Assembly (NCBI GenBank): GCA_013334395.1
Contig: JAAXXS010000005.1
Span: 1-59,761, forward strand
DNA length: 59,761 bases
Origin: Holophagaceae bacterium
GTDB taxonomy: Bacteria; Acidobacteriota; Holophagae; Holophagales; Holophagaceae
Direction: 5' to 3'
Part shown: positions 26,300 to 54,060 of the stretch, one piece after another
How the letters are laid out: each line of letters begins with the position of its first letter
How positions within the stretch are numbered: the first letter of the stretch is position 1
Notes under the pieces: generated by a model
What the model was told of the DNA's origin: nothing
What the model saw: the letters and a program-made list of their open reading frames with translations, nothing else
Database searches by the model: none
Program-made: the position numbers and the translations under genes

Positions 26300-26650
26300 C
26301 ACAGACTCCCTCAAGACCAGCCACCGCACAGGGGGGGCTCCATAGAACATACCTTCGACCCGGATGGACATCGAGGCGGGAAGGAAACAGGATCAGCGCA
26401 ATGGGAGCGGACTGAGCGGCGTTGCGACCCTGCGCTGAGGGCAAAATCTCGGCGCTACTGAAAAGACTTTTTAGCCACCGATGAACACCGATGAACACCG
26501 ATAAAGACATGATAAAAAATGAACAAAATCTGTTTTTATAGCCTTTTTCTTTATCAGCTTTTAATCGGTGTTCATCGGTGTTCATCGGTGGTTCAAAAAA
26601 AGCTTTTGCCTTTTCATTCTGCTTTTTCGGTGGCGCCGCGTTAGTACCGT
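26300..26650. other. 351-bp space holding an inverted-repeat element
   Basis: The space between the pyrE start and the stop of the GxxExxY gene. Its right two-thirds is AT-rich and carries the perfect 28-bp inverted pair described at 26475. The left third (26300-26460) shows nothing beyond the pyrE leader. No coding frame is supported. Confidence 0.6.
26475..26591. repeat. Palindromic repeat element, family A (ACCG-ATGAAC), perfect 28-bp arms
   Basis: The left arm at 26475-26502 and the right arm at 26564-26591 are exact reverse complements over 28 nt. Each arm is CC followed by two 10-nt units ACCGATGAAC and a last ACCGAT. The 61-nt middle is very AT-rich and contains a further GATAAAG/CTTTATC pair. 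CTTTTTAGCC precedes the left arm and a run of A follows the right arm. It lies 59 bp after the stop of the GxxExxY gene. A half copy is at 53553. Confidence 0.95.
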
Positions 26651-27037
26651 TCATCGCGACAACCGCTTGATCTGGGGTTTGGGTGTCCCGAAGTTGATGA
26701 GCAGGCAGGTGGGAATCCCGGTGGCCTTGAGGTAGTTCAGGCACTGGGCCGTGTGGGCTGGCTCCAGCGTCGCGCAGGCTTTCAGCTCCAGCAACAGCCT
26801 TCCCTCGACCACGATGTCCCCGACGTAATCTCCGACGTTCTGGCCCTCGAAGTGAACCGCGACATGGACCTGCCGTTGGACCTCCAGCCCCGCCTTTCGG
26901 AGCGCATTGACCAGCGCATTCTCGTAGACCTTTTCAAGGAAGCCTACGCCCAGCCCATTGGCAACATGGAACACACAGCCGATCACAGCCTCAGTCAGAG
27001 GGTCATGTTCGAAGGTGGGTTCCGTATCGGTGCCCAT
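26651..27037 (-). CDS. GxxExxY protein (PD-(D/E)XK nuclease-like fold)
   Basis: A 128-residue protein with the eponymous motif GFLEKVYENAL (residues about 33-43: G..E..Y), then GLEVQRQVHVAVHFEGQNVGDYVGDIVVEGRLLLELKA, where D..(x)n..E-x-K resembles the PD-(D/E)XK catalytic core, and a C-terminal CLNYLKATGIPTCLLINFG strand-helix. This is the TIGR04256/PDDEXK_3 family, of unknown function and widespread in environmental bacteria. The ATG stands 4 nt after the leuS stop, so it is probably translated from the leuS message. Directly downstream lies the palindromic family-A repeat. Family assignment is firm; nuclease activity is not shown. Confidence 0.92.
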   Translation of the reverse strand: MGTDTEPTFEHDPLTEAVIGCVFHVANGLGVGFLEKVYENALVNALRKAGLEVQRQVHVAVHFEGQNVGDYVGDIVVEGRLLLELKACATLEPAHTAQCLNYLKATGIPTCLLINFGTPKPQIKRLSR

Positions 27038-53552: not shown

Positions 53553-53597
53553 CCACCGATGAACACCGAGAAAAGCGGATAAACACCGATAAAGACA
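53553..53597 (+). repeat. Half copy of family A
   Basis: CCACCGATGAACACCGA, a degenerate unit, then ACACCGATAAAGACA. The two ends match 26475-26510, including the first bases of that element's middle. No inverted arm is found nearby. Confidence 0.8.
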
Positions 53598-53610
53598 ACT
53601 GAAGGATTAA

Positions 53611-53630
53611 CCACAAAGGGGCACAAAGAA
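53611..53630 (-). repeat. Family D copy, inverted relative to the one at 54029
   Basis: CCACAAAGGGGCACAAAGAA is close to the reverse complement of the TTCTTTGTGCCCTTTGTG core at 54029 and 25603, with one or two changes. Confidence 0.8.
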
Positions 53631-53767
53631 AGGCCTGGCTCCCCGGGCGAGATCACCTGTTCTGCCGGGGCTGCGCGGGAAAGGGCCTTCGTCCGGTGAT
53701 TCCAGGATGGATTGTGTCCCGCCCCGCATGGGCCCGCCGGAGGCGGCTTCCGGCTGCGCCGGAAGTC

Positions 53768-53823
53768 ATCCAGGTGTGCCACGGCCGCGCCCCCCAAAAG
53801 GCGCGGCCGTGGCACATCTGGAT
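53768..53823. repeat. 24-bp near-perfect hairpin
   Basis: The arms 53768-53791 and 53800-53823 are complementary over 24 nt with a single C/T difference that forms a G-T pair in RNA. The 8-nt loop is CCCCAAAA. No T-tract follows, so it does not look like a plain terminator. Another stem, CTTCCGG/CCGGAAG, stands just before it (about 53747-53765). Confidence 0.9.
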
Positions 53824-53887
53824 AGAGCCCATGCTCCGGTGCGCTGTCCTCAGTGGGCCTCGTCCCTGAAAGCAGAAATGCTTTTAG

Positions 53888-53985
53888 CCGGGGATGGACG
53901 GGGATGAACGGGGATAAGGACTAGAACTCGGACCAGGAGGTTCAGCGGCTGCTTTTCATCCCCGTTCATCCCAGTTCATCCCCGG
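53888..53985. repeat. Palindromic repeat element, family B (GGGG-ATGAAC), 28-nt arms
   Basis: The left arm 53888-53915 and the right arm 53958-53985 are complementary at 26 of 28 positions. Each arm is CC, two 10-nt units GGGGATGRAC and a last GGGGAT. CTTTTAG precedes the left arm. The arm length, unit size and ATGAAC constants equal those of family A. Confidence 0.93.
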
Positions 53986-54028
53986 CCAGATAGCACTTCT
54001 CCTGGCTCGGCCCAGCCCACCCCTGCTC

Positions 54029-54060
54029 TTCTTTGTGCCCTTTGTGTTCTTTGCGGTTAA
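54029..54060 (+). repeat. Family D copy (CTTTGTG type)
   Basis: TTCTTTGTGCCC-TTTGTGTTCT-TTGCGGTTAA, 29/30 identical to the copy at 25603. It lies just after the stop codon of the helicase gene (minus strand). Confidence 0.85.

Follow-up and report, generated by a model that had tools for sequence, protein, structure and literature searches.

Hairpins with triple-unit arms in a Holophagaceae genome and their association with GxxExxY nuclease genes

Background

The window, by which we mean the whole 59,761-nucleotide stretch of Holophagaceae DNA analysed here, contains two hairpins, A and B, whose arms share one architecture and differ in a four-base word, ACCG in A and GGGG in B. An earlier note on this sequence described them as a modular element in which one word had been rewritten coherently, as though its units were copied from one another or recognised by related proteins with different specificity. 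The locus raises the question of what kind of element these hairpins are and what keeps the word alike within one element.

Results and discussion

Anatomy of the hairpins

A and B are inverted, hairpin-forming doublets in extragenic DNA (Table 1). A, with a loop of 61 nt, lies between a GxxExxY gene and pyrE, and B lies between two convergent genes encoding a CxxC-type protein and a YoaA-like helicase. A degenerate arm pattern matched the window four times, exactly at the A and B arms that had been reported, with 0.06 matches expected by chance and at least four obtained in 0 of 100 shuffles. The resemblance of the flanks of A and B (CTTTTAGCC) is also present. The four-base part had been given as the sole difference between the families, changed in all units together; this applies to five of the six B units, the remaining one reading TGGG, and one B linker (ATGGAC) differs as well. 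The A and B arms, which were read directly, and the bases next to them contain no GTAG tetranucleotide.

The intergenic region around B (53553-54059) is a nest of repeats containing a degenerate A-type arm, an ACAAAG-type element, a G+C-rich repeat and B. The G+C-rich repeat, a dispersed repeat of another kind consisting of palindromes around GGCGCGGCC, occupies 53720-53845 and has many more copies in related genomes.

Table 1. Positions of the hairpin arms, neighbouring repeats and GxxExxY gene in the window
Feature	Coordinates	Strand	Reading or basis
Family A left arm	26475..26502	+	CC ACCG ATGAAC ACCG ATGAAC ACCG AT
Family A right arm	26564..26591	-	CC ACCG ATGAAC ACCG ATGAAC ACCG AT
GxxExxY gene (TIGR04256, PF13366 PD-(D/E)XK)	26651..27037	-	profile; begins a few nucleotides from the stop codon of leuS; A hairpin just past the 3' end
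Degenerate A-type arm (ACCGAT, ACCGAG, ACCGAT)	53553..53591	+	sequence
AG-type element around B, left arm (CC ACAAAG GGGC ACAAAG)	53611..53629	+	sequence
Family B left arm	53888..53915	+	CC GGGG ATGGAC GGGG ATGAAC GGGG AT; three 10-nt units
Family B loop	53916..53957	.	42 nt
Family B right arm	53958..53985	-	CC GGGG ATGAAC TGGG ATGAAC GGGG AT
AG-type element around B, right arm (CC GCAAAG AAC ACAAAG GGC ACAAAG)	54031..54059	-	sequence

The GxxExxY gene and its flanking arms

The gene beside A scored 132 bits against the GxxExxY profile (curated cut-off 35) and 134.7 against PF13366 (cut-off 22). The catalytic residues of the PD-(D/E)XK type, D74 and E84-x-K86, are invariant in six distant members, and the AlphaFold model (pLDDT 87.5) has its best, weak PDB matches (E about 2e-3, TM about 0.54) in lambda exonuclease and in SSO0001, a Cas4 protein. 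By profile, invariant residues and predicted fold, GxxExxY is a putative single-domain PD-(D/E)XK nuclease. In the open-access literature we found only unrelated mentions of GxxExxY, with no paper assigning it a function, and no paper on the repeat strings, which may have been described elsewhere.

GxxExxY genes are present in 40 of the 47 genomes of the window's genus and in 54 of a sample of 149 Acidobacteriota genomes. Plasmids and phages were rejected as carriers, the gene occurring on 8 of 72,556 plasmids and in none of 50,697 phages, and arms in 75 stretches among 2.9 million viral contigs. A second, truncated GxxExxY gene of the window genome sits between GCCAAG arms; its nearest neighbour on the protein tree is L317, with ACCAAG arms. 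In some AT-type genes (see below) the start codon falls inside the arm, ATG AAC ACN GAT being read as MNTD.

Thirty loci were chosen by the GxxExxY gene alone from the 149 Acidobacteriota genomes, and their 5' and 3' flanks were compared for inverted repeats with a score of at least 14. Such repeats were found at 26 of the 30 loci (87%) compared with 7.8% of mismatched pairs, and at none of the 30 at a control distance of 450–700 bp. They read ACC-RCNRAG-n2-RCNRAG-n3-RCNRAG or had the RCNRAT form seen in the window. The arm design of the bare hairpins is found in gene-bearing copies as well. Among the matches listed for contigs found by the arm pattern, the gene was no more than 111 bp from an exact arm at 7 of 9 GxxExxY loci, and at L318 it stands between a hairpin and a row of five 117-bp hairpins in tandem. 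The number of arms per genome in the window's genus rises with the number of GxxExxY copies (rho 0.60, n=31, p=3e-4). Seven of the 47 genus genomes have arms (1–19) without a GxxExxY match, including 4 of the 31 nearly complete ones, which carry 1, 1, 2 and 7 arms.

A similar layout was observed around genes for four-helix-bundle proteins (TIGR02436, S23/IVS type; L182-L211, Acidobacteriota), on both flanks of which stand inverted arrays of a word, about 6–9 nt long and specific to the element, such as GGACTAGG, GGCAGATG or CAGGATT; flanking inverted repeats were found at 28 of 30 such loci and in 1.1% of mismatched pairs.

Words within and between elements

A search for arms in 84,980 species genomes, in which each of the three words was free to vary, yielded at least 119 stretches, with 139 exact arms among the matches listed. 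These arms came from Acidobacteriota, Planctomycetota, Gammaproteobacteria, Cyanobacteria, Verrucomicrobiota, Chloroflexota, methanogenic archaea and others. Tabulating their 417 words gave a limited set, as the earlier note had anticipated: about 93% are R-C-N-R, and the RGNG minority, which includes the GGGG of B, is rare overall among the matches listed and common in the window's genus. The linker ATGAAC, described as constant, is so within the A/B sub-family; the wider class has a repeated core, RCNRA(G/T), with 2–4 variable bases between cores.

The expectation of a single word per element was borne out as a strong excess and not as a rule. Within the 139 arms among the matches listed, 193 of 417 unit pairs were identical compared with 48 after shuffling (coherence being highest at bases 1 and 4 and lower at base 3), and viral contigs gave a replicate (110 of 258 compared with 27 expected); only 40 of these arms had the pattern x-x-x, 39 having x-y-x, 34 another equal pair and 26 no two units equal. 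In 58 complete hairpins, units were identical in 45.7% of pairs within one arm, 46.6% of pairs facing each other in the stem, 42.5% of non-facing pairs and 11.1% of pairs from different hairpins. Since facing units are hardly more alike than non-facing ones, stem pairing was rejected as the cause of word coherence, and the near-equal identity of facing, non-facing and within-arm units indicates that the word belongs to the element as a whole.

These figures bear on an explanation at the RNA level, in which the arms would form a long transcript stem for RNase III cutting, mRNA stabilisation or operon processing, with the nuclease gene a passenger or acting on RNA. The RNA folds are indeed very stable (A, -68.9 kcal/mol, z -12.3; B, -67.8 kcal/mol, z -9.8), and gene-bearing elements mostly share the orientation of their neighbours (32:8 for GxxExxY, 32:6 for four-helix-bundle genes). 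They also resemble the intervening sequences (IVS) of 23S rRNA that hold a small gene, of which the Coxiella IVS is excised by RNase III and contains the S23p ORF (PMC4990558). However, pairing leaves the coherent word unexplained, B lies between convergent genes, and no Rfam family reached its gathering score in the B region. We consider an RNA-level element unlikely. A known RNA family was also rejected for B, the sub-threshold Rfam matches being mostly to microRNA hairpins.

Further arrangements of arms were noted. One genome (G032) has about 120 arms with ACAG and ACGA words, many in arrays at a spacing of about 185–225 bp. GGTG/AGTG elements at L002, L009 and L014 have the arm order reversed, with the CC ends inside, and other inverted triple repeats (ACGAAG, GCCAAG, ACCAAG) stand beside ATGAAC-type arms at L010, L012 and L014.

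Arm type and the protein tree

On a tree of 67 GxxExxY proteins (127 columns), each labelled by a fixed rule (G or T as the unit's final base), the RCNRAG and RCNRAT arm types require 2 changes compared with 21.5 after shuffling, with 0 of 500 shuffles as low. The branch between the AG and AT clades has a support of 97/94, and L320 is the sole exception to the rule. The two arm types are found side by side in a genus and even within a single genome (L300, AG-type, and L329, AT-type, in G023; L313 and L351 in G192), so the association is not due to host composition. The AT clade spans bacteria and archaea, and the 10-nt period seen in the window is found mainly in one of its subclades and periods of 8–9 nt in another, with a few exceptions.

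We found that the window protein groups with L323, L318, L306 and L177, which have ACCG-type arms; GGGG, GGTG and AGTG arms occur with L180, L321, L303, L319, L324 and L181. For C versus G at word base 2, with labels assigned by eye and weakly supported separating forks, 2 changes were needed compared with 5.7 after shuffling (0 of 500 as low). The subclades of GxxExxY that accompany the arms of ACCG type (A) and of GGGG type (B) are different ones, at forks of weak support. Two element lineages are a better reading of A and B than the proposed swap of the word in one element.

The kind of word follows the nuclease family tree, as would be expected if every nuclease lineage recognised a word of its own, and the split by arm type fits the earlier idea of related proteins with different specificity. 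The association could arise merely from joint inheritance. However, the unit has long been conserved across phyla in non-coding arms, for which joint inheritance falls short; recognition by the co-inherited protein would be the simplest reason. Since no intact GGGG-type GxxExxY gene was found in the window genome, which does have B hairpins, B may be an orphan there; the nearest such gene is L321 in G003.

Presence, absence and change at orthologous sites

One orthologous site was followed in 30 genomes of the window's genus, from which most site comparisons come. In 15 of the 30 it is an empty gap of 45–48 nt. The occupants in the rest are gene-bearing elements with GCAGAT units or ACAGAT units (a remnant being one of these), GCGAAT/GCGAAA hairpins without a gene, or a GCAGAG hairpin. 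On the host-gene tree, at least four interchanges between the empty and the filled state fall on supported branches, and the window genome is empty within a clade of filled genomes. No target-site duplication or clean insertion was seen at this site, where the whole intergenic stretch differs.

On the protein tree, the genes of the GCAGAT and ACAGAT elements found here stand next to each other (97/78), and L173, from another family, is placed among them. Six GCAG units are present in G122 and G189, and six ACAG units in G195, G023 and G194, with few single-unit departures. This is the best case of a coherent word change, observed in place as the earlier note had envisaged, and units also mutate alone: G017 reads GCAG, ACAG and GCCG. 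Independent mutation of units, which had been set against the idea of a shared word, does occur, yet sharing is far beyond chance.

At the B locus, the hairpin of G022 carries the same change on both arms, that of G003 has lost exactly two units (20 nt) from one arm, and G199 lacks B; in several distant genus members a short intergenic gap with a plain G+C-rich palindrome is found instead. Copying of units from one another finds a trace in the 20-nt deletion, which copying or slippage could have produced. An exact empty-site junction for B was not found in G199 or the distant genus members, the region being too rearranged.

Both the exact two-unit loss and the coherent six-unit change would also be expected of passive short tandem repeats that slippage and gene conversion keep uniform and that no protein recognises. 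However, the RCNRA(G/T) grammar is kept across phyla and is common to both inverted arms, and arm type follows the protein tree, so we regard passive repeats as improbable.

That the hairpins are moved by an ordinary transposase, whether RAYT/IS200 or some other IS, is very improbable: an IS5-like-looking IS in G132 has amplified a decaying GxxExxY element together with its arms, but the Y1 transposase (PF01797), present in 5 of the 47 genus genomes, is absent from the window genome and from 42 of those 47, which still have hairpins, and RAYT/IS200 was rejected as the mover. The amplified element of G132 (L242-L265) has GCGGAG arms, and most copies have internal gene deletions; because of these, and because the IS carried the element along, the copies were discarded as a source of exact insertion boundaries. 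It is just as hard to credit that B is a mere bidirectional terminator, as its place between convergent genes and the short G+C-rich palindrome there in several relatives might suggest, since a scan of the B region gave no terminator-like site (a T run after a G+C stem) and elements of the same class also lie between co-directional genes.

Proposed explanation

We conclude that A and B are probably gene-less members of a widespread hairpin class, apparently undescribed in the open-access literature, that has three copies of a short word per arm and is linked to GxxExxY. With similar, qualified confidence, the best reading is a REPIN-like system in which a PD-(D/E)XK nuclease replaces the RAYT and would recognise and mobilise the hairpins. 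The grounds observed are i) the anatomy, ii) the arms flanking the gene, iii) word coherence without stem pairing, iv) the agreement between arm type and position on the protein tree, and v) presence or absence of an element, and the switching of occupants, at one orthologous site.

Some family members carry the small GxxExxY gene between or beside their arms. Its product would bind the repeated unit, probably as several protomers lined up along the same face of the DNA, a 10-nt unit being about one helical turn, and would cut at the arms or close to them; the element might then be copied or exchanged as the break is repaired. Gene-bearing and bare hairpins would spread in this way through intergenic DNA, the bare ones being mobilised in trans. 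If every lineage of the nuclease is adapted to a unit of its own, the word would be alike in six units and differ between lineages, as between ACCG-type and GGGG-type arms.

A wider proposal is offered tentatively, and we hold it to be possible more than likely: that this is a class of selfish elements, absent from the literature searched, in which nuclease and triple-unit target have co-diversified into a readable code (R-C-N-R-A-G/T, the length of the spacer, and whether word base 2 is C or G), bare hairpins follow, and movement proceeds by cutting and by recombination that swaps whole intergenic stretches. Given the parallel four-helix-bundle class with other words, the placing of a small gene between inverted arrays of short words would be a general design.

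The association ties GxxExxY to a specific, visible DNA partner, so its function becomes directly testable, and provides natural matched protein-word pairs for learning how PD-(D/E)XK enzymes recognise DNA. If the link holds, it would account for much repeated intergenic DNA in Acidobacteriota and other groups.

Comparison with known systems

The GTAG/CGTC-tagged REPs are, like A and B, intergenic palindromes found in many phyla (PMC3733652), but the hairpins described here have neither tag and differ in length and internal repeat. Like MITEs, they are short and gene-less, with terminal inverted repeats and longer gene-bearing relatives of the same arm design; unlike in MITEs, their ends are tandem words and the gene-bearing form has no transposase. 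At the one orthologous site, where the intergenic sequence is exchanged in its entirety, no target-site duplication was seen. With the 23S rRNA IVS they share a short element, one small gene, inverted ends and a patchy distribution, but A and B lie outside rRNA and GxxExxY is an unrelated protein; the intergenic four-helix-bundle genes show a parallel design with other words.

The REPIN-RAYT system consists of REP doublets and a Y1 tyrosine transposase (PMC3116915, PMC8266576). The protein considered here is a predicted PD-(D/E)XK nuclease and not an HUH/Y1 enzyme, the arms have three tandem 8–10-nt units without a GTAG motif, and the gene itself often lies between the arms. The likeness to REPINs consists in dispersed extragenic inverted doublets that form hairpins, in clusters beside the gene, and in several classes per genome, each with its own protein lineage.
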